Shown: positions 33,491 to 55,952 of the stretch, piece after piece | How the letters are laid out: every line of letters starts with the position of its first letter | Numbering within the stretch: position 1 is the stretch's first letter | Assembly: GCF_018118585.1 (NCBI RefSeq) | Contig: NZ_CP069421.1 | Span: forward strand, 372,001 to 436,000 | Direction: 5' to 3' | Length of the DNA stretch: 64,000 nucleotides | Origin: Aristaeella lactis | GTDB taxonomy: Bacteria > Bacillota > Clostridia > Christensenellales > Aristaeellaceae | Notes under the pieces: model-generated | Databases searched by the model: none | Seen by the model: only the letters and a program-made list of their open reading frames with translations | What the model was told of the DNA's origin: nothing | Position numbers and translations under genes: made by a program

Positions 33491-33552
33491 GGGGAGTCAA
33501 TATAGTCATTTGGGAGTTCAATATAGTCATTAGAAGGCAAAATGACTATGTT
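33491..33552. promoter_or_regulatory. Repeated AATATAGTCATT sites upstream of the nucleotidase island
   Basis: Two direct copies (33491-33510 and 33511-33531) of a 20-21-base unit ending CAATATAGTCATT are followed by an inverted partial copy (AATGACTATGTT, 33541-33552). They sit about 45-100 bases before the island promoter. They could be operator sites or remains of the insertion that brought the island. Confidence 0.5.
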
Positions 33553-33593
33553 AAGCAACCATATGCGGTTCTTTCAGTTTTTTTCTCATTTTA

Positions 33594-33623
33594 TTGAAGC
33601 ACAATACGTTGAAATGGTATAAT
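33594..33623 (+). promoter_or_regulatory. Promoter of the nucleotidase-MazG-helicase operon
   Basis: TTGAAG and TATAAT are separated by 18 bases, about 70 bases upstream of the first start codon. Confidence 0.7.
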
Positions 33624-33697
33624 ACACATATTAGTGGCATATCAATATATTATATATCGATTATGTGGTAATACTCATAATACATGAGGAGGAGAAT

Positions 33698-34618
33698 ATG
33701 CCATACGATCTTTCGAAACCACTTGTAATTGGTATTTCCTCGAGGGCACTTTTTGATCTTGAAGAAGAAAACAAGATATTTGAAGAAGAGGGGCTGGAGG
33801 CTTATATCAAATATCAGATTAATAATGAACTGAAAGTGTTGCAACCTGGAGCGGGATTTGAGCTGGTTAAAGCTTTCTTGAGATTAAACGATCTTAAGCC
33901 AGATAGTAGGCTTGTGGAAGTGATTATTATGTCTCGAAATAGTCCCGATACAAGCCTGCGCATTTTCAATTCTATTGAGAAATATGGCCTGGATATAACT
34001 CGTGCTGCGTTAACTGGAGGAGCGTCTGCAGCACCGTACTTGCAATCATTTTATACGGATCTGTTTCTGTCTGCCAATATCGAAGACGTTCAAGACGCAA
34101 TTAACAATGATGTGGCGGCTGGTTTACTGTTGACCAATTCTGCTCATCCAGAAAAGAAAAACAAAGTGGATCAGATACGAATTGCGTTCGATGGCGATGC
34201 TGTTTTGTTTGGAGCAGAAGCCGAAAGAATATATCAACATGCCGGAATAGAAGCATTTAAGGAGCATGAACGTAGTCATGCAAACGAGCCTCTTTCAAAA
34301 GGCCCATTTGCTAATTTTCTAACAGCATTGTCAAATATACAGTCTATGTTCCCCGATCGTGAGGATGCTCTTATTCGTACGGCACTGGTCACTTCAAGGA
34401 ATGCTCCCGCTCATGAACGTGCTATAAAAACACTACGAGCATGGAACGTTCGAATCGATGAAGCCTTTTTTCTGGGCGGTGTTTCAAAGAAGGAAATCTT
34501 GGATAAATTTGGAGCACATATTTTCTTTGATGATCAACACGCACACACAGATCCTGCTGCAGAGGTTGTAGCATCTGCAGTTGTTCCATACCGTGAAGGA
34601 GATAATCCATTAGAATAA
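33698..34618 (+). CDS. Cytosolic 5'-nucleotidase (PF06189 type)
   Basis: 306 residues from ATG 33698; GAGGAGGAG lies upstream. VIGISSRALFDLEEENKIFE at the N-terminus and RIAFDGDAVLFGAEAERIYQ in the middle (a HAD-like D-x-D) are the signatures of the PF06189 5'-nucleotidase family, with FFLGGVSKKEILDKFGAHIF near the end. It removes phosphate from nucleoside monophosphates. This gene opens a more A+T-rich three-gene operon and is 22 bases before the MazG-like gene. In a defence reading it would drain the nucleotide pool. Function in this context is inferred. Confidence 0.88.
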   Translation: MPYDLSKPLVIGISSRALFDLEEENKIFEEEGLEAYIKYQINNELKVLQPGAGFELVKAFLRLNDLKPDSRLVEVIIMSRNSPDTSLRIFNSIEKYGLDITRAALTGGASAAPYLQSFYTDLFLSANIEDVQDAINNDVAAGLLLTNSAHPEKKNKVDQIRIAFDGDAVLFGAEAERIYQHAGIEAFKEHERSHANEPLSKGPFANFLTALSNIQSMFPDREDALIRTALVTSRNAPAHERAIKTLRAWNVRIDEAFFLGGVSKKEILDKFGAHIFFDDQHAHTDPAAEVVASAVVPYREGDNPLE

Positions 34619-34640
34619 AATACACAGGGAGAATCTCAAC

Positions 34641-34964
34641 ATGAGCGAGCTTCAGGAACTGATGAACCAAATTAACGAATTCACAAGGGAACGCGACTGG
34701 GATCAGTTTCACAGTCCGGAAAACCTTGCGAAATCCATTGCCATTGAAGCGGGAGAACTGCTCGAATGCTATCAATGGAGCAGTGAAGCAAAGCCTAAAG
34801 CTGTGGAAGAAGAACTGGCGGATGTGCTGAATTACTGCCTGCAGATGGCGGCAAAGTTAGGCCTGGATCCTGTTGAGATTGTCCGTAAGAAAATGCAGAA
34901 AAACGCTGAGAAGTATCCTGTAGACAAGAGCAAGGGGAGAAGTACGAAGTATGATCAACTTTGA
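34641..34964 (+). CDS. MazG-like nucleotide pyrophosphohydrolase
   Basis: 107 residues; GGGAGAA precedes ATG 34641. The MazG metal-binding helices are clear: SPENLAKSIAIEAGELLECY and EEELADVLNYCLQMAAKLGL (E-x-x-E and E-x-x-D patterns). Single-domain MazG-like proteins cleave NTPs or dNTPs to monophosphates plus pyrophosphate. The upstream 5'-nucleotidase could then dephosphorylate those monophosphates. Its 3' end overlaps the helicase start by 14 bases, so the three genes are coexpressed. Confidence 0.92.
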   Translation: MSELQELMNQINEFTRERDWDQFHSPENLAKSIAIEAGELLECYQWSSEAKPKAVEEELADVLNYCLQMAAKLGLDPVEIVRKKMQKNAEKYPVDKSKGRSTKYDQL

Positions 34965-36735
34965 TGTTAAGATCTGTGATTTTCCCTTTGACGCAACAAG
35001 TCAGTCCAGGATTGAACAATGGAAAAGCGGAGATAAGGAATACGGTACCAATTGGCCTGTTGTGTACATGATCCATAATGACGATTCCAAAGAAGCATAT
35101 ATTGGTGAAACGCTAAACGCGGGCAAACGGGCGGCTCAGCATTGGCAGGTAGAAGAACGTAAACGTCTGAAGACAATCCATATCATGACGGATGACACTT
35201 TCAATAAATCCGTCATTCTTGACCTGGAATCCTTCCTGATCAAGTATATTTCTGCTGATGGCAGGTATAAACTGCAGAACGGGAATACGGGCCTGTCTAA
35301 TTTTGATTACTATGACCGGCAGGGATATGAAAAAGAGTTTGAAAAGATTTGGGAATGCCTGAAAGAAAAAGGAATAGTAGACAGCGGGATTGCAGATATT
35401 GAAAATTCAGACCTGTACAAATACTCACCATACAAATCTCTGACAAAAGATCAGGAAAGAGTGCTGAAAGAAATACTTGAGCACCTGATGCTTTGTATAT
35501 GTAAAAACGAGGAGAAGACGGTTATTGTAAAGGGTGGAGCCGGAACAGGGAAAACGATTCTGGCTGTATTCCTGCTTAAGCTTCTGTATGATCTGAAAAA
35601 CGATACATATGAAGACAAAGACGAGGAAGATTCCGAAGTAAATATCGATAAGCTTCATGCTATTATGAAACAACGGGATCTGAAGATCGGATTTATAGTT
35701 CCGCAGCAGTCTTTACGTAAAACACTGAAGAAGGTTTTCCGTACAATGCGTGGTATCCCAGAAAGCATGATTATGACACCAACGGAAGCCGCTATTGCTG
35801 CGACGGATGCTCCCTTTGATCTTCTAGTTTGTGATGAAGCACACAGATTGCGCAGAAGAGTGGCTCTCAGCCAGTATCCGGCATATGACAAGGTCAATAA
35901 AGACCTTGGTTTGCAAAAGGACGCGACAGAATTGGACTGGATTATCCGCTCCAGTAAAATGCAAATCCTTTTCTATGATTCAGCACAATCAGTCAGGCCA
36001 TCAGATATTCCAAAGGGTGTATTCCGAAAGATTCTGGACGCACAAGAGAATAAGCAAAATCTGCAACTGACATCCCAATTGCGCTGCCTGGGCGGGGATG
36101 ATTATATCAAGTATATCCATGAGGTTCTTGAGTATGAAGGATTCCTGACAGATATTGATAGATCGATAACGGAATCCGCTGTTCTTAAAGAAAGCGGTAC
36201 AATTTGGACAGCACCGCATGGAAACTTCAAAGACTATACTCTTAGTTTCTATGATGATGTCGATGAGATGATGAATGAGATCAACCGACTGAACAAACGG
36301 TATGATCTATGCTGTGCTGTGGCTGGGTATGCATGGGAATGGATTACAAAAAAAGAACCGAAGAATACAGCTAAACGGGATATCGATATTGGCAAAGGAT
36401 ATATATGGAACCGAACTTATACGGACTGGATCAACTCCGACCGGCTTCCATACGAAATAGGTTGCATTCATACTGTACAGGGATATGACCTGAATTATGT
36501 TGGTGTAATCTTCGGACCGGAAATCTATTACGATAAAACAAAAAAGAGAATTGAAGTTGATAAAAGCAAGTATAAAGACAGCCTCGGAAAAGCAGTTGGT
36601 AATGACTATGAAGCATTACGCGCATACATCCTGAATATCTATGCCACACTTCTGACTAGAGGAATTCGCGGAGCGTTTGTTTATGTCTGTGATCCCGATT
36701 TGCGGGAATACCTGAGACCGTACTTTACGGAGTAA
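34951..36735 (+). CDS. GIY-YIG nuclease fused to DUF2075/Schlafen-type helicase
   Basis: 594 residues. The N-terminal GIY-YIG nuclease spans about 34-130 (WPVVYMIHNDDSKEAYIGET, then HWQVEERKRLKTIHIMT and a Glu in LDLESFLIKYI). The helicase has Walker A VIVKGGAGTGKT (about 192-202) and Walker B LLVCDEAHRL (about 290-299). Later come an arginine-containing QLRCLGGDDYIKYIHEVLEY and IHTVQGYDLNYVGVIFG, as in DUF2075. It would move on and cut nucleic acid. Adjacent MazG-like and nucleotidase genes suggest a defence system. There is no transmembrane segment. GGGGAG precedes ATG 34951. Confidence 0.9.
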   Translation: MINFDVKICDFPFDATSQSRIEQWKSGDKEYGTNWPVVYMIHNDDSKEAYIGETLNAGKRAAQHWQVEERKRLKTIHIMTDDTFNKSVILDLESFLIKYISADGRYKLQNGNTGLSNFDYYDRQGYEKEFEKIWECLKEKGIVDSGIADIENSDLYKYSPYKSLTKDQERVLKEILEHLMLCICKNEEKTVIVKGGAGTGKTILAVFLLKLLYDLKNDTYEDKDEEDSEVNIDKLHAIMKQRDLKIGFIVPQQSLRKTLKKVFRTMRGIPESMIMTPTEAAIAATDAPFDLLVCDEAHRLRRRVALSQYPAYDKVNKDLGLQKDATELDWIIRSSKMQILFYDSAQSVRPSDIPKGVFRKILDAQENKQNLQLTSQLRCLGGDDYIKYIHEVLEYEGFLTDIDRSITESAVLKESGTIWTAPHGNFKDYTLSFYDDVDEMMNEINRLNKRYDLCCAVAGYAWEWITKKEPKNTAKRDIDIGKGYIWNRTYTDWINSDRLPYEIGCIHTVQGYDLNYVGVIFGPEIYYDKTKKRIEVDKSKYKDSLGKAVGNDYEALRAYILNIYATLLTRGIRGAFVYVCDPDLREYLRPYFTE

Positions 36736-36823: not shown

Positions 36824-37591
36824 ATGCCCAACTCAATCATCATCAACTGCAAGAAGTGCGGTATGCCGCTGAAAAAGGGAACCAAGATCTGCTCCTACTG
36901 CGGAGAGAATACCGGTTATCTGTTTAACCGGAAACCCAGGGAAAAGGAAAGAGCCATCCGGATCGGCGGATTCAAGATCGCGATCCCGTGGGTCACACTT
37001 ATCCTGATCGTCCTGAATGCGGTAGCAGGTATCTATAAACTGGCTGGAGGACAGTATGACGTTCTCCGGCATTTCGGTATGATCCAGGGAGCCCTCCAGA
37101 GAGGAGAGCTCCAGCGGCTGTTCCTGAGCAGCTTCCTGCATTTTGACCTTTCGCATTTCTTCAGCAATATGTACGGCCTGGCGATCTTCGGCTTTGTATT
37201 TGAGAACCGGATCGGCAAATGGAAATACCTGCTGATCTATATTGCTTCCATGCTGGGATCCGCCCTGCTGATCAACTTTATCGGCGGCAGCGGCCTCCAT
37301 GCCGGTGCCAGCGGTGCCATCTGGGGCCTGATGGCAGCGAACCTAGTATACAACCTGATCACCCGGAAAAAGTTCCTGTATATGCTGTATGCCTTTGTGG
37401 CTGTGATCGGTAATGTGCTGTCCACCTTCTCGGCAGGGATCAGCTGGCAGGGTCACTTCGGCGGAGCCATCGCCGGTGTAATCGCCGCACTGCTGCTCTT
37501 CAAGCAGGAGAAGCAGGAAAAGAAAGTGGAAAAACACATGGAACAGATAGAAAACTATACAACAGGAGCGAACCATGGTCGGCAAGTATAA
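36824..37591 (+). CDS. Rhomboid-family intramembrane serine protease with zinc ribbon
   Basis: 255 residues from ATG 36824, with AGGAG at 9 bases. An N-terminal zinc ribbon (CKKCGMPLKKGTKICSYCGE) precedes six helices. The catalytic serine is in HAGASGAIWGLM (Ser about 163) and the histidine in SWQGHFGGAIAGVI (about 211); LHFDLSHFFSNMYGL is the conserved H-x-x-x-N loop. It cleaves membrane proteins within the bilayer. The cytoplasmic tail is Lys/Glu-rich. The next gene overlaps its end by 17 bases. Confidence 0.93.
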   Translation: MPNSIIINCKKCGMPLKKGTKICSYCGENTGYLFNRKPREKERAIRIGGFKIAIPWVTLILIVLNAVAGIYKLAGGQYDVLRHFGMIQGALQRGELQRLFLSSFLHFDLSHFFSNMYGLAIFGFVFENRIGKWKYLLIYIASMLGSALLINFIGGSGLHAGASGAIWGLMAANLVYNLITRKKFLYMLYAFVAVIGNVLSTFSAGISWQGHFGGAIAGVIAALLLFKQEKQEKKVEKHMEQIENYTTGANHGRQV

Positions 37592-37886
37592 AGTAATCAC
37601 CCTGTGCGGAAGCACCAAATTCAAGGATGCCTTTATGGAAGCCCAGAAGCGGCTGACACTGGAAGGGAATATCGTCATCAGCGTAGGGATGTTCGGTCAT
37701 TCCGGAGACGATGAAGTCTGGACAGAGGGAACCAAGGCAATGCTGGACGATATGCATAAGCGGAAGATCGACATGGCTGACGAGATCTATGTGATCAACG
37801 TGGGCGGGTATATCGGGGAAAGCACGAAGTCGGAGATCAGCTATGCACAAAGGACAGGAAAGGCGGTTCGGTTTTTGGAAGAATAA
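37575..37886 (+). CDS. DUF4406/nucleoside deoxyribosyltransferase-like protein
   Basis: 103 residues. ITLCGSTKFKDAFMEAQKRL at the start and VGGYIGESTKSEISYAQRTG near the end are the base and sugar-binding motifs of nucleoside 2-deoxyribosyltransferase-like proteins. DEVWTEGTKAMLDDMHKRKI lies between. It may act on nucleosides or bind nucleotides. It overlaps the rhomboid gene by 17 bases and is likely coexpressed. Repeats and a terminator-type hairpin follow. Confidence 0.75.
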   Translation: MVGKYKVITLCGSTKFKDAFMEAQKRLTLEGNIVISVGMFGHSGDDEVWTEGTKAMLDDMHKRKIDMADEIYVINVGGYIGESTKSEISYAQRTGKAVRFLEE

Positions 37887-44974: not shown

Positions 44975-45544
44975 ATGGACACGAAAGAGAAGGCAATTGA
45001 TTCTAAGTGGTACAAGCAGGATGGATCAGAAATAAAAAGGGTTATTAAAATTCTGCTGATCATTCTGGCTATTGCAGCAGGCATAATATGGTACAGCACA
45101 TTGATGACGCTGCCCGGGGAAGTGAAACTAAACAGCAGTATGAGCATTGAGACTGCTGATGAACTGGTGCAGAAAGCCGGATATATCCCCAAGGATGAGA
45201 TCAAAAGCACGGAAGATTGTCGTTATCGGTTTTATGAAAGCAGTGAACTTTTCGGTATAAAAACCCTGGGTAGCGAAGTTTGCGCTGTAGAAACCCCTGC
45301 GGAAGCTGTATATTTTACACATTATTTTGCTGATGAAAATGAGCAGAATAACGCTGAAAACCCGGGTTCAATCTTTTTTACCGTAAAGGGAGAAATGACC
45401 CGTAGATTTGGGAAGAAGCCCACCGAGGCAAAAACACCAAAGGGGAGAACTGTGTGGTACTGGATCGTGAATAAAAAGGAACAAGCAGCAGTGATGTATG
45501 TGGAAGACGGTATGTTTGAACTGAGATATACTTATGAAGAGTAG
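44975..45544 (+). CDS. Single-pass membrane protein, six-member paralog family (A)
   Basis: 189 residues; GAGAGGAAA precedes ATG 44975. A short cytoplasmic part (WYKQDGSEIKRV), one helix (IKILLIILAIAAGIIWYS), and an external domain with LPGEVKLNSSMSIETADELV, QKAGYIPKDEIKS, YESSELFG, THYFADENEQNNAENPG and a terminal WYWIVNKK...FELRYTYEE. Closest relative here is 56058-56633. Others are 46949, 52449, 53096 and 56866. Function unknown; membrane anchoring and a shared operator suggest a coregulated envelope family. Confidence 0.78.
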   Translation: MDTKEKAIDSKWYKQDGSEIKRVIKILLIILAIAAGIIWYSTLMTLPGEVKLNSSMSIETADELVQKAGYIPKDEIKSTEDCRYRFYESSELFGIKTLGSEVCAVETPAEAVYFTHYFADENEQNNAENPGSIFFTVKGEMTRRFGKKPTEAKTPKGRTVWYWIVNKKEQAAVMYVEDGMFELRYTYEE

Positions 45545-45563
45545 AAGATGAATAATGATTGAG

Positions 45564-45593
45564 AAAACAGTGCCTTCGGGCACTGTTTTTTTA
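45564..45593 (+). terminator. Terminator of paralog A
   Basis: AAAACAGTGCC and GGCACTGTTTT pair perfectly around TTCG, followed by a T-run, 20 bases after the stop. Confidence 0.85.
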
Positions 45594-45598
45594 CAGAA

Positions 45599-45690
45599 TT
45601 TACAGGATTGTTACATTGAGGAGATGACACTGAAACAAGGAATATAGTATTGTATACGAGGACAATGAAACCACTGGGCTGAGACAGGAG
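45599..45690 (+). promoter_or_regulatory. Shared promoter/operator module, copy 2
   Basis: Matches copy 1: TTTACAGGATTGTTACATTG, then GATGACACTGAAACAAGG, AATATAGTATTGTATACGAG and GACAATGAAACCACTGGGCT. The inverted repeat is imperfect here. Confidence 0.65.
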
Positions 45691-45697
45691 AATGAAG

Positions 45698-46930
45698 ATG
45701 AAAAAGAAGATCTGGTTACTGCTGGTTCTGGTACTTGTGCTTGCATGTGCGGCTGGTTATTTCATTTTCAAAAAGCCGGCAGATGTGCGAATCGATGAGG
45801 AACATTTTCCGGACAGCGCATTCCGGGAAGCCGTGACGGCATTTGACCTGGACCAGGATGGAAAGCTCAGTGGGGAAGAAATAAAGAAGATAGAGTATCT
45901 TAATATAGCAAAGAAAGGTATAGCAAGCCTTCAGGGCGTGGAATACCTGACTGAAGTGAAAAACATTTATGCCGATGATAATGAGCTCACTGAAGTGGAT
46001 ATCAGCCATAACAAAAAGCTGGATCGCATTTTTTTGAGTCATAATCGTTTGGAAAAGCTGGATGTGAGCAACAATGCGGAATTGGTAAATCTTACCTGCC
46101 CAAATAACAGGCTGACGGAACTGGATGTAAGCAAAAACGCGAAACTCCAGATCCTGCAGTGCGGCATTAACGGGTTGACTGAACTGAACGTCAGGGACAA
46201 CACGGAACTGGAGGAGCTGGAATGCTACGAGAATCATCTGACGGAAATAGATGTGAGACTGAACGCAAAGCTTAGATGGCTTGAATGCTGGGGCAACCAA
46301 CTGACCGAGCTGGACATAAGCAGAAACGCCGAGCTTACCTCCCTATGGTGCTACGATAATCAGATTGAAGAAATAGATTTCAGCCGGAACTTAAAAATGA
46401 TTCAGGTGAGTGTTTCCGGATGCAAGATAAAGGATCTTGATCTCAGACGTTATCCTGATCTGTGGGGATTTGTCTGCGAAGGGTGCGGGCTGACAGAACT
46501 GGACGTCAGCAAAAACCCGAAACTGTATCAGCTGTGCTGCAACGGTAACGAGCTGACAGACCTGAACCTGAGCAACAATCCCAAGCTGGAAGTGCTGGAA
46601 TGTTCAAATAACCAGCTGCCCCAGCTGGATCTGAGCAATAATCCCCTTGTGAAACGCCTGGAGTGTGACGGTAACAAGCTGACGAAGCTTGATATCAGCT
46701 GCTGTCCGAAACTTGTTGAAAGAGTAAACGGAGCCATAGCGGAAGAGAAAGACGGAAGCATCGAGTGGAACCTTCCTAAGGATTCAACCCGATACGTATA
46801 TGACAGGTTCGTGATGCGAATTGACAAAGATGTGGAAGTAATCAAAGAGGCTGGCTCCGAGCAGGGAACAACAGGAAGAGTGACACATTTTATAGTGTTT
46901 GTTGGACGGGAAGAACGCGCAGCAGTATGA
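45698..46930 (+). CDS. Membrane-anchored leucine-rich repeat protein with an EF-hand-like loop
   Basis: 410 residues from ATG 45698, with AGGAG 7 bases upstream. An N-terminal helix (IWLLLVLVLVLACAAGYFIF) anchors it. FDLDQDGKLSGEEI is an EF-hand-type D-x-D-x-D-G calcium loop. About twelve repeats of about 21 residues follow, for example LTELDVSKNAKLQILQCGIN and LTDLNLSNNPKLEVLECSNN. These resemble internalin-like repeats on gut Firmicutes surface proteins and likely bind other molecules. It shares its promoter module with the paralog family, and paralog B follows by 18 bases. Confidence 0.9.
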   Translation: MKKKIWLLLVLVLVLACAAGYFIFKKPADVRIDEEHFPDSAFREAVTAFDLDQDGKLSGEEIKKIEYLNIAKKGIASLQGVEYLTEVKNIYADDNELTEVDISHNKKLDRIFLSHNRLEKLDVSNNAELVNLTCPNNRLTELDVSKNAKLQILQCGINGLTELNVRDNTELEELECYENHLTEIDVRLNAKLRWLECWGNQLTELDISRNAELTSLWCYDNQIEEIDFSRNLKMIQVSVSGCKIKDLDLRRYPDLWGFVCEGCGLTELDVSKNPKLYQLCCNGNELTDLNLSNNPKLEVLECSNNQLPQLDLSNNPLVKRLECDGNKLTKLDISCCPKLVERVNGAIAEEKDGSIEWNLPKDSTRYVYDRFVMRIDKDVEVIKEAGSEQGTTGRVTHFIVFVGREERAAV

Positions 46931-46948
46931 CGAAGGGATAGAAGAAAG

Positions 46949-47539
46949 ATGATCAACTACAATGACGACAAGCGTATTGCTGAAAAGTTTTACAGCAATG
47001 ACGGATCAGAAAAGAAAAGGGTTATCAGGATCGTATTGATTATCATGCTGGTCGCCGCTGCTCTATGGGGATTCGGCTTGTGGAGGGAGAACCAGCGTGT
47101 GCCTGCCCTGCCCGGGGAAGTGATCCTGAAGGGTGATATGGACATTGCCGCAGCGGATGAACTGCTGCAGGAAGCCGGATATATTCCAGAGGATGAAGTA
47201 AAAACAAATGATCGATATTATAAACTGTATTATAAAAGCAGTGAGGTTTTCGGTTATACAACGGTACGCAGTGCACTGGCTGTCGATAAAACCGGTTCGC
47301 AAGGCATGTATTTTATTCACTGCTTTGAGGATGACAGTGAAGAGAATAACGCGGACAATCCAGGGGAAAAATTTAAAGCTATCTATACAATACTGACCAA
47401 ACAAATCGATGAATACCCAAAAATGGTTAGTTCGTCGGATAAGGCATGGACCTGGAGCCTGAACAGAAAAACAAAGGTACATATGCTATATACAAGTGAC
47501 GGCGTGTTTGTGGTGGAATACCATTATTCAAACAAATGA
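46949..47539 (+). CDS. Single-pass membrane protein, paralog family (B)
   Basis: 196 residues, 18 bases after the leucine-rich repeat gene and likely in its operon. N-terminal MINYNDDKRIAEKFYSNDGS, one helix (VIRIVLIIMLVAAALWGFGL), then LPGEVILKGDMDIAAADELL, QEAGYIPEDEVKTND, YYKSSEVFGYTT, FIHCFEDDSEENNADNPG and WTWSLNRKTKVHMLY. It belongs to the subgroup starting MI-N/K-YN with 52449 and 53096. Function unknown. Confidence 0.78.
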   Translation: MINYNDDKRIAEKFYSNDGSEKKRVIRIVLIIMLVAAALWGFGLWRENQRVPALPGEVILKGDMDIAAADELLQEAGYIPEDEVKTNDRYYKLYYKSSEVFGYTTVRSALAVDKTGSQGMYFIHCFEDDSEENNADNPGEKFKAIYTILTKQIDEYPKMVSSSDKAWTWSLNRKTKVHMLYTSDGVFVVEYHYSNK

Positions 47540-47556
47540 ATCACAAGAAGACGGAT

Positions 47557-47585
47557 CAGATCTCTCGACTAAGCTCGAGATGACA
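47557..47585. repeat. Minimal GATGACA palindrome
   Basis: GATCTCTCGA and TCGAGATGACA with a 6-base centre; the shortest, almost perfectly paired form of the family. Confidence 0.7.
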
Positions 47586-47618
47586 AATAAAACATAATTA
47601 TGCCAGCGGAGGAAACCG

Positions 47619-48191
47619 ATGAAAATCTGTAAGAACTGCGGAACAGAGATCAGGGACGAAGACAGAATCTGCTACAGGTGCGGGACAGAGTATGTTGAAG
47701 AGGAAAGCGTGACGGAGGAGAAAATCGATACAGCTGACCCCAAAGCATACAAACTGAAATGGCATATATTATTCATCGCCATCCTTATGATTGCGGGAGC
47801 GGCCCGGGTTTTCTTTTCGGTGCAGGCAATCACAGGGTGGAATCTGTATATCTATAACGGAGTAGACATTACGGTTCTTGTAAATATGTTCTATCCGGGC
47901 ATAAAGGAGCTGAATATTGTTTATGGTGTGATGGGCCTGCTTACAGCGATACTGATGTATTGTGTCGGTTTCTGGCTGATAAAATTCAGGAGAAAAGCCC
48001 TCAAATGGATGGGCATTATGTTCCTTGGATGGATTGCGGTGCGTGTGTTATATATCGGAGCTGTATCGCTTGTTTCAAAAAGAAACAGTTTTGAGAATTC
48101 AACAATAATCAGTACGATTGTGGGATATATGATCCTGGGGGTCATCAACTGGGTATACTACTCCAGAAGAAAAGAATTGTTTGTTAAATGA
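47619..48191 (+). CDS. Zinc-ribbon membrane protein of unknown function
   Basis: 190 residues; GGAGGAAA precedes ATG 47619. The N-terminal zinc ribbon is CKNCGTEIRDEDRICYRCGT. An acidic linker leads to four transmembrane helices (WHILFIAILMIAGAARVFF, VYGVMGLLTAILMYCVGFW, WMGIMFLGWIAVRVLY, IVGYMILGVINWVYY). The zinc ribbon plus membrane layout resembles 15091-15867 and the rhomboid protein. No function assigned. Confidence 0.75.
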   Translation: MKICKNCGTEIRDEDRICYRCGTEYVEEESVTEEKIDTADPKAYKLKWHILFIAILMIAGAARVFFSVQAITGWNLYIYNGVDITVLVNMFYPGIKELNIVYGVMGLLTAILMYCVGFWLIKFRRKALKWMGIMFLGWIAVRVLYIGAVSLVSKRNSFENSTIISTIVGYMILGVINWVYYSRRKELFVK

Positions 48192-48214
48192 AGGGGAAAT
48201 GGTGAGGCAGGAGG

Positions 48215-48420
48215 TAACCCTAAAGGGTTAATGAAATATTGTCTTCGACAATGTGAAATATCGGCCGTGATTCGGCCGATGTGATCCTTCGACTGCGCTC
48301 CCTTCGTACCGCTTGCTCAGGATGACACTTTATGCGGAAGCCCAATGTGAAATATTCGCAACTGCGAATGTGTAAGTTACTGTCGCTTTGCGACGGGATA
48401 TTTGCTAAAGCAAATATGTT
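48215..48420. repeat. Hairpin array with TGTGAAATA linkers, copy 2
   Basis: Hairpins TAACCC-TAAA-GGGTTA, TTGTC-TTC-GACAA, TCGGCCG-TGATT-CGGCCGA, then an inserted GATCCTTCG...CAGGATGACA palindrome (48283-48327). After that come ATTCGCA-AC-TGCGAAT, GTCGC-TTT-GCGAC and ATATTTGC-TAAA-GCAAATAT. Linkers are ATGAAATA, TGTGAAATA and GTGTAAGTTACT. No gene lies in 48192-48634. Confidence 0.85.
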
Positions 48421-48444
48421 TACGCTGCGCTAGGCCTAAATAAT

Positions 48445-48605
48445 CAGTGAAAAGTTCCCAGTGAAGAGTGAAAAGTGAAAAGTTGGCCATGGGCCGCCGG
48501 AACCAAAAGCATAGATTGATCGTCATATCAACAGAGGAACAAATAAGGATGATTGTTTTGCCAGGGATGACAAAGTGAAGAGTGAAGAGTTTAGAGTGAA
48601 AAGTT
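48445..48605 (+). repeat. Two GTGAAGA heptanucleotide tracts
   Basis: 48445-48487 and 48571-48605 hold imperfect 7-base units (GTGAAGA, GTGAAAA, TTTAGAG). Non-repeat text about 80 bases long lies between them. Confidence 0.65.
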
Positions 48606-48634
48606 GCCACGGCGACAGGTGGAGGTAACAAGTG

Positions 48635-51600
48635 ATGAAAAAGATTATCGTGCTGATGGTTGTATTGCTGAGTATCCTGTGTACTACTGCCGCCGTGGCA
48701 GACGAGCCCCTGTTTGTTGCGCAGGAAGGCTGGAAACAGGGGTATATCAACGCACAAGGGGAATGGGTGATCGATCCTGTGTATTACGAGGCCCAGCCCT
48801 TTACCGACGCGGGATACGCGGCTGTGGTGGAGGATCCGGAGACTTGGGCATTCACACTCATAGACAGGCAGGGAAAGACAGTGACAAAACTGTCTGAATG
48901 GTGCCTGACAGAAAATGAATACAGTATGGATTATGGTGCTAAAGAAATACCGAATGCCGTGGGAAACGCCTTTCTCCTGTACAACCGGAAAGACATAAAC
49001 CGGTATGCCCTTTTCCTTGCAGGTTCCGGGAAACTGATCGAGCTGGATCGGGAGTTCCTGGGCTATGAGCTTTCGCCGGGCGCTGAACAAAATGAGATTT
49101 ATTATAATAATTACTTGCGGAGTAGAACGAATCCGAGTGATTTTTGCCTCAGTGGATGGAACGGAAGACTGATCCTGGGGTTTTGTTATACCGACTATCA
49201 GCGGGGGACAAACATATCAATAGAGGCAAATATGACAGATGCGTTTATTATCCTTGACAGCGAGGGTAACAAGCTGCATGACGGTATCTACCGCTTTCCG
49301 ATCAAAGTGACTGATTCACTGGAGCCTGTAGAGGATTATTCGTATCAGGTTACGGACACCTATATGCTGGCAGCCGATGCAAAGAACTACAATAAACACC
49401 TGATCGACTGTGACGGAAAGATCATCGTGAAAAATGTGGATGATATTTTTTTCTACAGTGAGGATTATACATGGGTAGAAACGCTGAAAGCTGTTTATGC
49501 GGAGAATTCAGGCCAGGCTTTGCTGCCGGACGGAAAGAAGATGCCTGTGGATGAACGCGTCAAAGAACAGGCTGCGCTGAACCCCTGCAGGATGCTTATG
49601 CATGACGGTTGGTATTATGACACGAAGGGTGAACGGATCAAATGGCATGGGGCCAGTGAAAAATACTATATGGCACTGTCCGCGTTCGGCAGGAACGGAC
49701 GGGCGTGGATTGACCGTAAACCGGATATTGAATGGGATAATGAGTCAGAGGAGGAGCCGGAGGACATAGAGGATTACAACGTATCCACTCTGATCGATAC
49801 AAGAGGACAGATTATTCTGCAGGCGGTCCTGAATCGGGAGCAGTATGACAGGTATAAGTATAATCCGTCAGCGGTTCCTTTTGAGGAAGGCTGGGAATGT
49901 ATCTGTACGCCGTTTGATGGATGGCTGTACGGTTATGTGAATCCGGACGGCGAAATGATGTTCGGCGGTTTCCCATTTGACAAAGCGGAGCCTTTCTCCA
50001 ACGGCCTGGCTCATGTGATGTTCATGGATGACAGGTATGAACTGCTGGACGTTTATATCAACAGGGAAGGAAAAGTTGTCTGGGCTGAGCACGGAAAACG
50101 GGATGAAGTCCAGCACTGGCTGGAGGAAGGTATCCGTTTTTCCCCGGATAACATGACCCTGGAGGATGCCACGCAGGCGCTGGTGGGTGAATGGGATGAC
50201 AGCGAAGGAGACATGGCAATCTTCTATGAAGACGGGACATGCAACCTCGGACGCGACAGGATGATGCAGTGGAAACTGCTGGAAAACACTGCGGAGATGG
50301 AGGACGAGGATTATTCGAAGTTTGTGCTGGTTTACGGAGAAAACGGACAGTACGAACCCCTGGAAGAAGGAAGCGGACTGGAATTCGGCAGCATGGACAG
50401 CTTTGTCACAACCTACGGTGAGGACTGGTGCTTTTACAGCCGGAAAGCCCCGGGCTACTGGGAACGTGACGACTACTATGACCTGGTGCCGGATGAGAAC
50501 GGCAAACTAGACAATATGAGTGAAACGGTGTCAGTATTACCGGAAGAAGCGTCGAACTTTAAACTGACTGACAAGAGTTTGCCGGAGGAAACCGCAGAGA
50601 AAGGCGTATATGCATTCAGGGGATCCCCTTACCGGCAGAATGCTTCCGCAGGGACGGTCAGGGACATCTGTGTTCCGGAAGTGCTTTGGGAAAAGGACAT
50701 CGGGCCGGCAGTAAAAACAGAGGATATTCACTGGCAGCCCCTGATCGTTGAATGGTCGGATGAGATCAGGAAAAGCATGACGTCCCTGAAACCGGAAAAG
50801 CGGGAGAATTCTACCCTGACGGAAGTGATTGCGGTCGGAACAGACGGGAAGATCTGGTTTGCTGACCTGAAAACCGGCGAAGAAACACGGGCGCCGATCG
50901 AGGACAGGGAAGAAAAACTCCATGGAACGGCGACAGCCCTTTCAGACTTGCCGCTGATCATCTGTCCGGCGGAAGAAGGGTATATCTGCTATGACCTGAC
51001 AGACGGAAGCCGGAGAACGGAACTGGATGAAGTGCTGTATACCCGACAGGGAAAAGACGTGATCTACCAGAACGGCTGGCTGATGATGAATTCCCCGCAG
51101 ACGGATCTTGTGTCTATCGGCCTGAACGTAAAACAGGGGCAGGATGGCATAAGCGGTGTGGACATAACAGGCGCATACAGGGCGGAGTATAATCACACCA
51201 AGTATTCCAACGTTCCAGCCAGCGCGGACGGGAACAATGTATATGTTTCGAGAGACAATGATATCCTTCGCTGGGACTGTATGAAGGATGAGAGCGTGAG
51301 CATCTTTGAAGATTGTGTTTATGTATCCGGGAAAACAGCAGCCTGTATAGCTGTAGATAAGGATTCGGAGGACCGTACTGTTCTGTATGCCGGATGCATG
51401 GAAAAAACTACCCACAATGAATGCGAAATATATAGTATCAATGCAGACCGGATGCTTACAAAGTGGGAGCAAAGAATAAAACTGACAAAAGAAAACGCTC
51501 TCCTGGGCGGCATTTTCGCCTCGCCGGTTGTGGGACAGGAATGGCTGGAAAATATTGTATATTTCACCGTCGCCGGATATGCGTTTGATGAAGAAACACC

Positions 51601-51919
51601 GGACAACCGGAACGCGGATTCGGCGGTTGTGGCGTACTGGAAACGCAACGGAGAAAAGAAATGGGAGACCCCGATCAAAGACCGGGCGGTTTCCTCACCG
51701 GTAATTGTATATACGGAAGACGGTATTGGATATCTGATCCAGTTTGACAAAAGCGGAAACATGTATGTGCTGGACGGCTTTTTAGGCACTGTTAAGTACA
51801 GCCTGGAGCTGGGCGGAGAAGTGACAAGCTGCCCGGCGGTATACGGGAATACGCTTGTTGTGAGGTGCCAGAAGGACGGACGGGAAGTACTGTGCGGGAT
51901 TGAAGTGGGAGTTAATTGA
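48635..51919 (+). CDS. Large secreted protein with WG-type repeats and a PQQ-like propeller
   Basis: 1094 residues from ATG 48635, with GGAGG about 8 bases upstream. Signal peptide KKIIVLMVVLLSILCTTAAV. The N-terminal half has WG-like repeats (WKQGYINAQGEWVIDPVYYE, GWLYGYVNPDGEMMFGGFPF). A lipocalin-like stretch follows (LVGEWDDSEGDMAIFYEDGT). The C-terminal half begins YAFRGSPYRQNASAG and looks like a PQQ-type beta-propeller. No catalytic site is apparent; it is probably an external binding protein. It is among the longest genes in the window. Confidence 0.82.
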   Translation: MKKIIVLMVVLLSILCTTAAVADEPLFVAQEGWKQGYINAQGEWVIDPVYYEAQPFTDAGYAAVVEDPETWAFTLIDRQGKTVTKLSEWCLTENEYSMDYGAKEIPNAVGNAFLLYNRKDINRYALFLAGSGKLIELDREFLGYELSPGAEQNEIYYNNYLRSRTNPSDFCLSGWNGRLILGFCYTDYQRGTNISIEANMTDAFIILDSEGNKLHDGIYRFPIKVTDSLEPVEDYSYQVTDTYMLAADAKNYNKHLIDCDGKIIVKNVDDIFFYSEDYTWVETLKAVYAENSGQALLPDGKKMPVDERVKEQAALNPCRMLMHDGWYYDTKGERIKWHGASEKYYMALSAFGRNGRAWIDRKPDIEWDNESEEEPEDIEDYNVSTLIDTRGQIILQAVLNREQYDRYKYNPSAVPFEEGWECICTPFDGWLYGYVNPDGEMMFGGFPFDKAEPFSNGLAHVMFMDDRYELLDVYINREGKVVWAEHGKRDEVQHWLEEGIRFSPDNMTLEDATQALVGEWDDSEGDMAIFYEDGTCNLGRDRMMQWKLLENTAEMEDEDYSKFVLVYGENGQYEPLEEGSGLEFGSMDSFVTTYGEDWCFYSRKAPGYWERDDYYDLVPDENGKLDNMSETVSVLPEEASNFKLTDKSLPEETAEKGVYAFRGSPYRQNASAGTVRDICVPEVLWEKDIGPAVKTEDIHWQPLIVEWSDEIRKSMTSLKPEKRENSTLTEVIAVGTDGKIWFADLKTGEETRAPIEDREEKLHGTATALSDLPLIICPAEEGYICYDLTDGSRRTELDEVLYTRQGKDVIYQNGWLMMNSPQTDLVSIGLNVKQGQDGISGVDITGAYRAEYNHTKYSNVPASADGNNVYVSRDNDILRWDCMKDESVSIFEDCVYVSGKTAACIAVDKDSEDRTVLYAGCMEKTTHNECEIYSINADRMLTKWEQRIKLTKENALLGGIFASPVVGQEWLENIVYFTVAGYAFDEETPDNRNADSAVVAYWKRNGEKKWETPIKDRAVSSPVIVYTEDGIGYLIQFDKSGNMYVLDGFLGTVKYSLELGGEVTSCPAVYGNTLVVRCQKDGREVLCGIEVGVN

Positions 51920-51936
51920 GGCAGGAAAGTGCCATC

Positions 51937-52108
51937 AGGTAGGAGGTAGGAAGTAGGAGAGTAACCCTGGCGGGTAAATGAAATATATCAAAGCAACGGT
52001 GTTGCTTTGATATGTGAAATATCGGCCGATGGCCGATGTGAAATATTGAACCGCGAGCGGTTCAATGTGAAATGTTTTCTACCGAAAACGTGTGAGTTAC
52101 TGTTGCTT
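51937..52108. repeat. TAGGAGG heptamer tract and hairpin array, copy 3
   Basis: 51937-51961 holds three TAGGAGG-type units. From 51962: TACCC-TGGC-GGGTA, ATCAAAGCAAC-GGT-GTTGCTTTGAT, TCGGCC-GAT-GGCCGA, TTGAACCGC-GA-GCGGTTCAA and GTTTTC-TACC-GAAAAC, with ATGAAATAT or TGTGAAATA linkers. The last two match copy 1 exactly. Confidence 0.85.
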
Positions 52109-52111
52109 CGG

Positions 52112-52292
52112 GAGATCCTTCGACTGCGCTCTCTACGCACCGCTTGCTCAGGATGACATCTAATGCGGAGGCAAATATGTCAACGCTGCGGCGGGGATTA
52201 TAGAGAGAACAGTGCCTTCGGGCACTGTTTTTTCATTGAAATCGCCACGGCGGGACAGATCTCTCCACGCACTTTGTTTGGTCGAGATGACA
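52112..52292. repeat. Palindrome, terminator hairpin, palindrome
   Basis: 52112-52158 is AGATCCTTCG...CTCAGGATGACA. 52207-52233 is GAACAGTGCC / GGCACTGTTTTTT, a terminator. 52256-52292 is AGATCTCTCC...GTCGAGATGACA. There is no gene in 51920-52448. Confidence 0.7.
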
Positions 52293-52315
52293 AGAAGGGC
52301 ACTGTTTTTTTGCGG

Positions 52316-52390
52316 ATTTTACACGGTTGTTACATTGTGATGATGACACTGAAACAAGGAATATAGTATATTGTATGCGAAAAAAACGAG
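52316..52390 (+). promoter_or_regulatory. Shared promoter/operator module, copy 3
   Basis: TTTTACACGGTTGTTACATT, GTGATGATGACACTGAAACA, AGGAATATAGTATATTGTAT. Same order as the other three copies; the second arm of the inverted repeat is imperfect. Confidence 0.65.
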
Positions 52391-52448
52391 GACAGGGTTT
52401 ACGACAAGCATATAACGTGAAGCAGTATGACGAAGGAGCAGAAAAGAC

Positions 52449-53036
52449 ATGATCAAATATAATAATGACAAGTCTATTGATCCAAAGTTTTACCGCAATG
52501 ACGGATCTGAAAGAAGAAATGTTTTAAAGATCCTGGTGATCATCCTGGTCGTTGGCGTGATTGGCTATATACTTGGTACATCTTTGGAAGAAACACGCCT
52601 GCCTGCCCTGCCCGGGGAAGTGATCCTGAGGGGGGATATGGATATCTCCGCAGCGAATGAACGGCTGGAGAAAGCCGGGTTTATTCCCCTGGATGAAGTT
52701 AAAACAGATGACGACTATGATCATCTGTTCTATGAAAGCAGTGAGGTCTACGGCTATCCAACCACGCGCAGCGAACTTGCTGTAGCGAAATCCGGGAAAA
52801 AAAGTGTTAGTTTCATTCACTATTTTGATGATGAAAGTAAAGAGAACAACATGAATAATCCGGGTGAAGTCTATGTATACATCGCGTCACAAGTGACTGT
52901 AAGATCCAGGGAAACTCCTCACAGACCTGCAGAAGACAGGGATGAGATATTCTGGATACTGCGCAGAGGACCAAGCGTTCATATGACATATGCCGATGAT
53001 GGTGTGGTTATGTTGGAATACCGTTACACAGACTAA
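52449..53036 (+). CDS. Single-pass membrane protein, paralog family (C)
   Basis: 195 residues; GAAGGAG precedes ATG 52449. MIKYNNDKSIDPKFYRNDGS, one helix (LKILVIILVVGVIGYILG), then LPGEVILRGDMDISAANERL, KAGFIPLDEVKTDDDY, YESSEVYGYPTT, FIHYFDDESKENNMNNPGE and the end VVMLEYRYTD. The linker after the helix varies among paralogs, but the PGEV block is fixed. Paralog D starts 59 bases downstream. Confidence 0.78.
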   Translation: MIKYNNDKSIDPKFYRNDGSERRNVLKILVIILVVGVIGYILGTSLEETRLPALPGEVILRGDMDISAANERLEKAGFIPLDEVKTDDDYDHLFYESSEVYGYPTTRSELAVAKSGKKSVSFIHYFDDESKENNMNNPGEVYVYIASQVTVRSRETPHRPAEDRDEIFWILRRGPSVHMTYADDGVVMLEYRYTD

Positions 53037-53095
53037 AGAATCACAAAAGGGAAGATTTGCAACGTGCAACTGTATGACAATGGAGAAGAAAAAAG

Positions 53096-53680
53096 ATGAT
53101 CAACTACAATGACGATAAGCGAATTGATCCAAAGTTTTACGAAAATGACGGATCCGAAAGGAAAAATGTCAGAAAGATACTGGTGATTGTTGTTCTTTTT
53201 TGCTTCTCTGTGCTTGGATTGGCTAAATGGATTGAATACCATCGCGGGCCGGCTTTGCCCGGAGAAGTGATCCTGAAGGGAGATATGGATATGGCAGAGG
53301 CGGATGCAATGCTGCAGGAAGCCGGGTATATCCCCAAGGGTGACGTTATAACAGATGATCAGCATTATCATCGGTATTATCAAAGCAGTGAGGCTTTCGG
53401 TTTTACAACCGACTGCAGTGTGCTTACTGTTTCCAAATCCGGAACGGAGGTCAATTTTGTCCATTGGTTTACGGATGAAAGTGAGGAAAACAACGCGGAT
53501 GTTCCCGGCAATACCTGGAGAACCATCGCGACAACGCTGAGGGGAGAAATCTGGGGGAACCCATCGGTGATAAAGGAAGAGAAAAATGGATGGTTCTGGA
53601 AACTGAACAAAAGAACAAAAGTGAGCCTGATCTATTCGAGAGACAATAGGTTTTTGCTGGAATACGAGTATTGGAAGTAA
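53096..53680 (+). CDS. Single-pass membrane protein, paralog family (D)
   Basis: 194 residues; GGAGAAG precedes ATG 53096. MINYNDDKRIDPKFYENDGS, a helix (VRKILVIVVLFCFSVLGLA), LPGEVILKGDMDMAEADAML, QEAGYIPKGDVITDDQHY, YYQSSEAFGFTT, FVHWFTDESEENNADVPG and WFWKLNKRTKVSLIY. Very close to C and B. No separate promoter module, so it is probably cotranscribed with C. Confidence 0.78.
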   Translation: MINYNDDKRIDPKFYENDGSERKNVRKILVIVVLFCFSVLGLAKWIEYHRGPALPGEVILKGDMDMAEADAMLQEAGYIPKGDVITDDQHYHRYYQSSEAFGFTTDCSVLTVSKSGTEVNFVHWFTDESEENNADVPGNTWRTIATTLRGEIWGNPSVIKEEKNGWFWKLNKRTKVSLIYSRDNRFLLEYEYWK

Positions 53681-53690
53681 AAGGGAGAAA

Positions 53691-53919
53691 ACAATGCATA
53701 ATGCATAATTCATAATGGTGGAGAAAACAGCGCGGAGCGCTGTTTTTCCTGATTAGCCATGCTGCGTGACAGAGGGACAGACCTAATGTCACACTGCGTA
53801 TGACAATACGTCAGTCCCGCAGTCACACGGCTGCGGCGGGATGACAACGGGTGTGTGCCTGCGGATGAGACGAGATCCTTCGGCTGCGCTCGCTACTCTC
53901 GTCTTGCTCAGGATGACAC
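53691..53919. repeat. Mixed repeats downstream of paralog D
   Basis: 53691-53717 is an ATTCATA heptamer tract. 53724-53748 is a terminator hairpin (AAAACAGCGC / GCGCTGTTTT). 53764-53826 is the GACAGAGGGAC inverted repeat (copy 3). 53872-53919 is AGATCCTTCG...CTCAGGATGACA. There is no gene in 53681-54013. Confidence 0.72.
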
Positions 53920-54013
53920 TTTTTGCTGAAAAATTGCCCGAGAGGATTGAGCGGACAGGTGTGATTCTGTATAATGCAGGGGAACTGCTGAGAATACGGA
54001 GGAAGAATCACAT

Positions 54014-54961
54014 ATGACGAACCGGGAATTACAGGATATCTATTTCGGAGCTTATTTCTTTGAGGAAACAGAAGACGGATACCTGCAGGCTTTCCAGTAC
54101 TCGAAGGAGCAGATGGATTACTTCAGGAATGGACCGTTTGATTTCTGGTATGACCGGTGCATGGCAACGACCGCGAAGACCCTGGAGATGAACACGGACG
54201 CGACCACGATCTCCTTTGAATACAGGATTATCTGGGTGGGATCCGAAGACTCTTTTGAGGTGGCGGTGGACAACCAGATCATGGAGATCCGTTATGTGAA
54301 GGATCTGCCCAGGGAAGGAAAGCTGACCTGGAAGCTTCCGGAAGGGAAGAAGGATGTCATCCTTTACCTGCCCGCGGACGCGACGGTGCTGATCCGGAAT
54401 TTTGAGATTGACGGAGCGTATACACCCGCGAAAAAGAATGAAAAGGTGCTGTGGCTGGGAGACTCCATCACCCAGGGATACGGGCCGCTGCGCTCTGCCG
54501 AGACCTACGTCAGCGTGGCCAACCGGCTGCTGAACTATGACATCATCAACCAGGGAATCGGCGGATATGTGTATGACAAGAAGTCCCTGATGAAGATGGA
54601 AGGATACACGCCGGACAAGATCATCGTGGCGCTGGGAACGAACCAGTTCGGATGCGAGACCATGAAGGACGTGGAAGAATACTACGAGACACTGACCGGC
54701 ATTTACGGGACAAAGATCCCGATCCTGTGCATCTCCCCGCTGTGGCGCGGAGACCTGCCAGAGCAGCTTCCGGTGCTGGAACGTTTCTGCGAGAACGTGA
54801 AAAAGATCGCGTCACAGTATCCGAATGTGACAGTGGTGGACGGATTTAAACTGGTCCCGCACCTGCCGGAATACTTCCTGGATAACCTGCACCCGAATGT
54901 GGTCGGGACGGAAACGTACGGGAGGAATTTGGTGGAAGAGATAAGGAAGGCAAAATTCTGA
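54014..54961 (+). CDS. SGNH/GDSL-family hydrolase
   Basis: 315 residues; GGAGGAAG precedes ATG 54014. A beta-sandwich N-terminal domain (to about residue 140) precedes the catalytic domain. The catalytic serine is in LWLGDSITQGYG (Ser151). The oxyanion residues are the Gly of NQGIGG and the Asn of ALGTNQFG. The Asp/His pair is DNLHPN near the end. This two-domain layout is seen in carbohydrate or lipid ester hydrolases. There is no signal peptide, so it acts inside the cell. Substrate unknown. Confidence 0.88.
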   Translation: MTNRELQDIYFGAYFFEETEDGYLQAFQYSKEQMDYFRNGPFDFWYDRCMATTAKTLEMNTDATTISFEYRIIWVGSEDSFEVAVDNQIMEIRYVKDLPREGKLTWKLPEGKKDVILYLPADATVLIRNFEIDGAYTPAKKNEKVLWLGDSITQGYGPLRSAETYVSVANRLLNYDIINQGIGGYVYDKKSLMKMEGYTPDKIIVALGTNQFGCETMKDVEEYYETLTGIYGTKIPILCISPLWRGDLPEQLPVLERFCENVKKIASQYPNVTVVDGFKLVPHLPEYFLDNLHPNVVGTETYGRNLVEEIRKAKF

Positions 54962-55012
54962 CATGCCAGAATTTTGGTGTCAGCAAGCTGACACTACTTA
55001 AAACTGAAAACT

Positions 55013-55136
55013 AGATCCTTCGACTGCACATTCGTTTGCTCAGGATGACACTTTAATCGGAAAATGGTGGATAAAACAGCACAGAGTGCTGTTTTCCCTG
55101 AATTGATCAGATCTCTCGACTACGCTCGAGATGACA
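55013..55136. repeat. Palindrome, terminator hairpin, palindrome
   Basis: 55013-55050 is AGATCCTTCG...CTCAGGATGACA. 55073-55097 is AAAACAGCAC / GTGCTGTTTT. 55109-55136 is AGATCTCTCGACTACGCTCG followed by AGATGACA. A short ACTGAAA tract (54998-55012) precedes them. Confidence 0.7.
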
Positions 55137-55166
55137 TTGAGAGAATGACAGGCGAAGGAGAAGAAA

Positions 55167-55475
55167 ATGTCCGAGAAGAAGTCCAATTTTGTGCTCATGG
55201 ATGAGATGGAAAAAGAGAACACTCATGTGGATCGCCGGGTAAAATACACAAGATTAGGCTTCAGACAGGCACGCATCATTGCAGGAGCCTGTGATGACGT
55301 AAATATGGGATTTCCGGTTATTTCAATCATTGGTCTTGCAATCATGGCTGTCACAGATCTTATTGATTCAGAGTCCTGGATCATAGATGCCGGTATGGTT
55401 ATCGCAATCGTTGGATTTGTGGAATATATCATACGATTTGTTTACAGGTGGAATAAACATCATGAGAAGAAATGA
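55167..55475 (+). CDS. Small membrane protein with a DEMEKEN motif
   Basis: 102 residues; GAAGGAG precedes ATG 55167. The cytoplasmic N-terminus has SNFVLMDEMEKENTHVDRRV, then two helices (VISIIGLAIMAVTDLI and DAGMVIAIVGFVEYIIRFVY) and a basic tail. The same motif, length and layout occur in 14010-14321. A cytoplasmic interaction role for the motif is a guess. Confidence 0.7.
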   Translation: MSEKKSNFVLMDEMEKENTHVDRRVKYTRLGFRQARIIAGACDDVNMGFPVISIIGLAIMAVTDLIDSESWIIDAGMVIAIVGFVEYIIRFVYRWNKHHEKK

Positions 55476-55942: not shown

Positions 55943-55952
55943 ACGAAGGCGC

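Follow-up and report, generated by a model that had tools for sequence, protein, structure and literature searches.

A MazG-like pyrophosphohydrolase and a GIY-YIG nuclease–helicase form a conserved gene pair and candidate anti-phage module in Aristaeella lactis and other bacteria

Aristaeella lactis has three plus-strand genes at positions 33491-36735 of the 64,000-nt stretch of contig NZ_CP069421.1 analyzed here (the window). According to the open reading frame (ORF) calls, they encode, in this order, a 5'-nucleotidase, a MazG-like pyrophosphohydrolase (MazG) and a GIY-YIG nuclease fused to an SLFN-g3 helicase (the helicase). The conserved functional unit is the pair of MazG and the GIY-YIG-helicase. 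The pair is widespread and occurs in many bacterial phyla, candidate-phyla bacteria among them. The nucleotidase, a distinct candidate defence gene, has ended up ahead of the pair and is a passenger here. We propose, with the chances about evenly balanced, that the pair is an anti-phage module joining DNA attack by the nuclease–helicase to dCTP-type hydrolysis by MazG. The genes and their domains are as follows.

33698..34618, plus strand: PF06189 5'-nucleotidase, PADLOC candidate PDC-S08; adjacent passenger, outside the conserved unit
34641..34964, plus strand: MazG-like pyrophosphohydrolase, RS21-C6/DCTPP1 type (dCTP pyrophosphatase); opens the conserved pair
34746..34823, plus strand: MazG metal-binding motif E36-x2-E39 ... 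E58-x2-D61, residues 36-61; present in 75/75 pairs
34951..36735, plus strand: GIY-YIG nuclease fused to SLFN-g3 helicase, short form without an S24 domain; second gene of the pair
35059..35292, plus strand: GIY-YIG nuclease domain, about residues 37-114; from Pfam, conserved residues and strand-helix order in the model
35515..36693, plus strand: SLFN-g3 helicase domain, residues 189-581; from Pfam and conservation, with SLFN11 as the nearest solved fold in Foldseek
35533-35556, plus strand: Walker A, residues 195-202
35833-35844, plus strand: DEAH box, residues 295-298

A preliminary description of the locus had proposed these gene calls, a 22-base gap between nucleotidase and MazG and a 14-base overlap between MazG and helicase. 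The ORF coordinates agreed with all of them, and Pfam confirmed the family names. The nucleotidase matched PF06189 with 436.6 bits, and MazG matched PF12643 (MazG-like) with 70.4 bits against a cut-off of 27. The helicase gene matched PF01541 (GIY-YIG) at its N-terminus with 23.8 bits (cut-off 22.6) and PF09848 (SLFN-g3 helicase), which we take to be the former DUF2075, with 192.3 bits. The nucleotidase ORF runs from an ATG at 33698 to a TAA ending at 34618, with GGAGGAG ahead of the start.

The helicase alignment was run against 84,980 species, each represented by one genome. The best 80 of 564 confirmed loci were analyzed; they span 15 NCBI phylum labels, with 13 loci unlabelled. They include near-identical loci (L098/L100 and L102/L107), many metagenome bins and several contigs that end near the pair. 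Their genes were called as longest non-overlapping ORFs, a procedure unreliable in G+C-rich loci. A MazG gene lay beside the helicase in 69 of the 80 loci. In 65 it immediately preceded the helicase on that gene's strand, either overlapping it or lying within 100 bases; the others were downstream (2), further upstream (1) or upstream on the other strand (1). Altogether, 67 of the 69 neighbours shared the strand and lay within 100 bases or overlapped. Among 297 genomes of the same order, a close MazG (E below 1e-20) was found in six, all of which have a PF09848-type helicase. The two genes adjoin in five of them and are 1.3 kb apart in the sixth, G288. Another of these genomes, G218, has a helicase without a GIY-YIG match; its genus-mate G073 counts here by its PF09848-type helicase. 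Over 75 pairs, the protein distances of MazG and helicase correlated with r 0.51, and the best of 2000 shuffles reached 0.15.

The nucleotidase behaved differently. The preliminary description had joined the three activities in one logic, in which MazG makes a monophosphate and the nucleotidase dephosphorylates it, and had set a co-occurrence check with rare joint occurrence as the adverse outcome. The trio showed that outcome; the pair did not. A nucleotidase gene was near the helicase (within 10 kb or to the contig end) in one of the 80 loci, where it lay about 5.7 kb off on the opposite strand. It was absent from all 20 helicase-carrying genomes searched, two of which (L053 and L056) lack MazG; the same model also matched none of 14 control genomes, yet it found 8 of the 297 order genomes. 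In the order, the helicase was present in six genomes (one a fragment at a contig end, one without GIY-YIG) and the nucleotidase in eight, both only in the window genome. Among 41 genomes drawn from the genus, four had the helicase and three the nucleotidase, and again only the window genome had both. We also inspected the eight order nucleotidase loci (flanks up to 1.5 kb) and eight plasmid regions with nucleotidase relatives. None of the plasmid regions contained MazG or the helicase, and among the order loci these genes appeared only at the window's own. Because the nucleotidase rarely co-occurs with the pair, the proposed sequence of MazG and nucleotidase steps is, on these counts, not a conserved pathway; it could still work in this one strain. 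The operon-like spacing in the window, the plausibility of all three parts for defence and the nucleotidase match to PDC-S08 speak for a single three-part defence pathway. Given the counts from the 80 loci, the 20 genomes and the order and genus draws, we rejected a three-gene system, which we regard as very improbable.

On its own, the nucleotidase resembles a known candidate. Its residues 1-300 matched positions 15-314 of the 323 in PADLOC PDC-S08 (E 6e-132), which is nearly full length. PDC-S08 is a stand-alone 5'-nucleotidase candidate, covering the first gene only and not the pair. PDC denotes a phage defence candidate found by embedding and unvalidated, and in one P. aeruginosa panel PDC-S08 was divided evenly among the resistant and the susceptible strains (PMC10855318). 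As read from annotations, six of the eight plasmid regions had defence-type neighbours and two had none. One region had a DEAD/DEAH helicase, with AbiEii some kb away, one had Dsr1 with type I restriction genes, and one had type I restriction genes. The remaining three had Hhe with AbiH, a SIR2 protein and a DUF262 protein, respectively.

The best solved relatives of MazG were RS21-C6 and dCTP pyrophosphatase 1 (DCTPP1), with E 6e-20; they belong to the all-alpha MazG family. The DCTPP1 pocket consists of H38, W47, E63, E66, W73, E95, D98 and Y102 (PMC4491611). According to docking, the 5-methyl group is additionally contacted by W47 and W73, and the Michaelis constant (Km) of DCTPP1 is 85 µM for 5-methyl-dCTP, lower than the 152 µM for dCTP (PMC4491611). 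These pocket positions align to residues 11, 20, 36, 39, 46, 58, 61 and 65 of the window MazG. W20, E36, E39, E58 and D61 were present in 75/75 pairs, and the metal motif ExxE ... ExxD was fully kept. Residue 46 was W in 73 of the 75 pairs, and residue 65 was Y, W or F. The window MazG thus has the same metal motif and both pocket tryptophans as DCTPP1/RS21-C6. It differs in being bacterial and shorter, in lying in an operon with a nuclease–helicase and in having a hydrophobic residue in place of H38. Judged by these residues, MazG looks active and DCTPP1-like.

The helicase protein was equally well conserved at its active sites. GIY-YIG residues Y39, Y50, G52, R60, H64, E93 and N110 were kept in at least 97% of 75 rows; the Tyr, Arg, His, Glu and Asn among them are presumably catalytic. 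The GIY-YIG domains of several relatives score below the Pfam cut-off. Walker A and B residues G195, G198, T199, G200, K201, D295 and E296 were found in all 75 rows. That the two genes are so closely paired, with nearly invariant active sites, argues for two working enzymes that act together. The protein model had a mean predicted local distance difference test score (pLDDT) of 85.5, and Foldseek returned SLFN11 as its top solved match (E 7e-9). A VIA-align search covered residues 110-594. The Schlafen proteins SLFN11 and SLFN14 share the PF09848 helicase family and the fold with the window protein, which has a GIY-YIG nuclease in place of the Schlafen RNase core. That core gave no Pfam match in the window protein up to E 0.1.

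A C-terminal LexA/UmuD-type S24 domain was present in 31 of 75 relatives (for example, L046:9947-12010, L057:1201-3234 and L080:9995-12193). The feature tested was a Ser-Lys dyad together with an Ala-Gly or Cys-Gly site, and the Ser and Lys columns were invariant in 31/31. These long forms occurred mainly in Bacteroidota and candidate-phyla bacteria; Sphingobacterium olei (locus L102) is a cultured species with one. The window protein had no Pfam match to S24 and is a short form.

From the computed pairing, conserved residues, modelled fold, S24 domains of relatives and neighbourhoods, we infer a defence role, against phages or other invading DNA, a DNA target, a MazG substrate, self-cleavage and an order of events. 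The helicase would load on DNA and translocate, and its N-terminal GIY-YIG domain would cut the DNA. MazG would hydrolyze dCTP, or dCTP altered at position 5, to the monophosphate, a step that may starve or clean the precursor pool during nuclease action. In the long forms, the LexA/UmuD-type domain would probably link activity to DNA damage via self-cleavage. The window copy, as a short form, would have no such switch. The preliminary description had suspected defence, and for the MazG-helicase pair this suspicion gained support from CRISPR-Cas and SauUSI-like neighbours, plasmid carriage (the pair is plasmid-borne in lactobacilli) and patchy presence, in 6/297 order and 4/41 genus genomes.

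CRISPR-Cas adjoined the pair in two of five genus carriers. In G179 (L015 1462-8576), a 25-repeat CRISPR array, itself preceded by type I-C cas3, cas5, cas8 and cas7, lies about 0.1 kb ahead of the pair. In G322 (L186 9354-15736), type I-E cas3, cas8e, cas7 and cas5 start about 0.4 kb behind the pair. The pair of G349 follows the rhomboid gene that lies downstream in the window, and the pair of G179 is followed by one ORF and then by a relative of the window gene at 37575-37886. With these positions differing, the exact site of the pair shifts between sister genomes. The gene at 37575-37886 is itself small and conserved, overlaps the rhomboid gene and has no Pfam match.

SauUSI-like genes (PLD-helicase-DUF3427) were found within 4 kb of the helicase in five of the 80 loci (L043, L049, L053, L097 and L113), weaker matches in L105 and L112 being excluded. 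Two further cases, a lactobacillus plasmid (L011) and a phage-labelled record (L013), brought the number of fetched loci to seven. L049 and L053 have no MazG. A Nudix gene lay near the SauUSI-like gene in five of the seven (L011, L043, L053, L097 and L113); these Nudix genes matched MutT and NudG models best, below the curated cut-offs. Ten strong SauUSI-like matches (E below 1e-78) were found in the order, five with a Nudix gene within about 1.5 kb. SauUSI-like genes thus often have a MutT/NudG-type Nudix gene nearby, in L147, L149, L150, L155 and L164 as in the five fetched loci just named. A dNTP pyrophosphohydrolase and a nuclease-helicase may be paired here for a second time. In locus L049 (751-8596), consecutive genes encode the GIY-YIG-helicase, another PF09848 helicase whose N-terminus differs, a DUF262-like protein and a SauUSI-like protein. 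Queries with the DUF262 (GmrSD-type) proteins of L049 and L052 brought up no others in the 80 loci, and DUF262 as a regular neighbour was rejected, being present in 2/80 loci only.

Neighbouring proteins were compared with PADLOC at E 1e-15. The 136 neighbours from 14 loci matched 77 families, and 140 control proteins from the same genomes matched 44. The listed neighbour matches included restriction, AbiD and Fic; the listed control rows came apparently mostly from one UvrD-type protein. The controls were taken from one fixed place per genome, and neighbour genes below 110 residues and ORFs in masked stretches were excluded. The comparison took 14 of the 80 loci, including L053 without MazG, as 6 of 20 control stretches did not exist. 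The neighbour excess is suggestive and falls short of measured enrichment.

To look for a phage origin, viral contigs were queried with the helicase, with its alignment and with the nucleotidase. These queries gave 7, 27 and 12 pattern matches, respectively, and no encoded relative; the searches use short peptides and may miss relatives. Four phage-labelled records matched the helicase and three the nucleotidase. One of the helicase records, MT836409, also encodes a glycogen-debranching-like protein, as read from its ORFs, and for this reason looks bacterial.

Several observations weigh against a paired defence module. The pairing was measured in the 80 best-scoring of the 564 loci, and remoter relatives lie outside them. 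Eleven of the 80 helicase loci have no MazG, and only one of the 11 starts inside the helicase; two of four plasmid relatives opened (Paenibacillus and Lysinibacillus) also lack it. The distance correlation keeps shared descent in, and the helicase tree follows phyla fairly well. MazG position 11, the equivalent of H38, was I in 37, L in 26, V in 9, F in 1, Y in 1 and a gap in 1, and never H; with this base-contacting residue not kept, any preference for dCTP is putative. The S24 domain would suit SOS-linked repair no less than defence. The genus carriers G000, G349 and G323 have no CRISPR-Cas next to the pair. Among 57 scanned window proteins, only the nucleotidase matched PADLOC at E 1e-15, so the window copy does not lie in a recognizable defence island; the 57 were picked by hand from longest-ORF calls, with short ORFs and likely shadow frames excluded. 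Finally, the PADLOC neighbour comparison rests on 14 loci and counts families rather than proteins, and one helicase type fills several rows.

The pair could instead serve DNA repair and precursor cleaning. MazG would then remove damaged dNTPs, the GIY-YIG domain and the UvrD-like helicase would repair lesions, and the long forms would be under SOS-type control. GIY-YIG domains occur in UvrC. The UvrD-like fold of the helicase and the S24 domain of the long forms agree with such a role. Its patchy distribution, its presence on lactobacillus plasmids, its position next to CRISPR-Cas in two sister genomes and its differing surroundings within one genus do not, and we consider repair a serious, though less likely, alternative. 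Another explanation is nucleotide-depletion abortive infection, in which phage DNA or replication forks would be sensed by the helicase, with MazG acting as principal effector by draining dCTP. Strict MazG-helicase pairing and the conserved MazG active site would suit it, and depletion-type defences such as dCTP deaminase exist (PMC10121019). Nuclease residues kept at 97% or more point to the nuclease as the effector, and the 11 helicases without MazG also speak against depletion, which seems to us very unlikely.

A third explanation is type IV-like, modification-dependent restriction, in which DNA with modified cytosine is cut and MazG removes the matching dCTP, thereby denying it to the phage or protecting host DNA. 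The DCTPP1 type of MazG, the conservation of both tryptophans that contact the 5-methyl group and the lower Km of DCTPP1 for 5-methyl-dCTP than for dCTP (PMC4491611) are in line with it. The SauUSI-like helicases in the seven fetched loci, five with a MutT/NudG-type Nudix, are as well. Orf135 of E. coli is NudG, a Nudix enzyme. Orf135 and RS21-C6/DCTPP1 have been named together as 5-methyl-dCTP hydrolases (PMC10742078), and SauUSI cuts 5-methyl- and 5-hydroxymethylcytosine DNA (PMC3874153, PMC7913695). Against this, 11 of 26 distinct helicase carriers encode PF00145 5-methylcytosine-type methyltransferases (10 of 24 when L053 and L056, which lack MazG, are left out; one genome entered twice among 27 was counted once), and the window genome has two such genes. 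PF00145 genes also occurred in 7 of the 41 genus genomes. Because carriers encode PF00145 methyltransferases, a general 5-methylcytosine cutter would attack the host. The prediction that carriers have no PF00145 genes failed, and plain 5-methylcytosine-directed restriction was rejected; the result holds for 5-methylcytosine only, not for other modifications or sequence contexts. In addition, Pfam recognized no modified-base reading domain in the short form, H38 is not conserved in MazG, and DUF262 proteins like those of L049 and L052 are confined to those two of the 80 loci. We therefore assign type IV-like restriction a low probability.

The anti-phage reading places the pair near several known systems and apart from each. 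In kind, it would be a nuclease–helicase defence with a nucleotide hydrolase partner and would form no new category. SauUSI relatives sit near the helicase in a few loci, often with a Nudix pyrophosphohydrolase. The window helicase presumably belongs to superfamily 1 (SF1). SauUSI (PLD nuclease, SF2 helicase and DUF3427) has nuclease and helicase on one chain (PMC7913695), as does the window protein, which differs in nuclease fold and helicase superfamily and has no recognized counterpart of the base-reading domain of SauUSI. In the PADLOC-DB v2 system models, the helicase had partial matches only (best AbiO, 3e-10, and PDC-S14, 4e-10), and MazG had only a partial Cas3fv match (3e-4). DefensePredictor names MazG as a predicted, unvalidated defence domain; its main text mentions neither GIY-YIG, helicase nor DUF2075, and its MazG system could be related (PMC13092281). 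An E. coli survey counts PF09848, by Pfam number only, among Abi pfams, and MazG is absent from its text (PMC10121019). No description of the MazG and GIY-YIG-helicase pair was found in the open-licence literature; the pair may nevertheless have been described elsewhere.

If the pair is a defence system, a widespread system is missing as a unit from PADLOC-DB v2. It would unite nucleotide-pool control with the destruction of invading DNA, two themes usually studied apart. Schlafen-type helicases would join the defence repertoire coupled to a nuclease that is not the Schlafen RNase core, and in the long forms the nuclease–helicase would carry its own SOS-type sensor. A bolder version sees an unnamed multi-phylum defence system, in which MazG would guard the pool (dCTP or phage-type modified dCTP), the GIY-YIG-Schlafen helicase would destroy DNA made from those precursors, and a large branch would be switched by a LexA/UmuD-like self-cleaving sensor. 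We think this version unlikely in full. Were its combination of pool and DNA control true, the SauUSI-like and Nudix genes would be a second, independently built case.

Two further features lie ahead of the nucleotidase.

33594..33623, plus strand: promoter-like site TTGAAG-18-TATAAT with TG before the second hexamer; consensus match only
33497..33531, no strand: exact 14-base direct repeat, two copies, starting at 33497 and 33518

The preliminary description had called the operon promoter-led. A promoter-like site was indeed present, and such sites numbered 18 in the window against 9.6 expected from shuffles, so the match is weak alone. The A+T-richness it had noticed by eye was confirmed. 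The locus has 41.6% G+C, the window 50.2%. Of 608 sliding windows of the locus length (step 100), two were equally low; they start at 33401 and 33501 and represent the same place.

The same description had taken repeats at the left edge as a hint of transfer. The repeats exist, and an inverted near-copy of the 14-mer lies at about 33540, all copies falling within 33497-33552 before the operon. A genome search gave one full match and four short, chance-level ones. Since the repeats are not dispersed in the genome, they do not look like a mobile-element end, and that interpretation was rejected. They could be an operator.

Further downstream, positions 44975-56630 of the window contain similar genes of about 190 residues (44975, 46949, 52449, 53096 and 56058). 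They form a paralogue cluster, and all match a single G349 protein.

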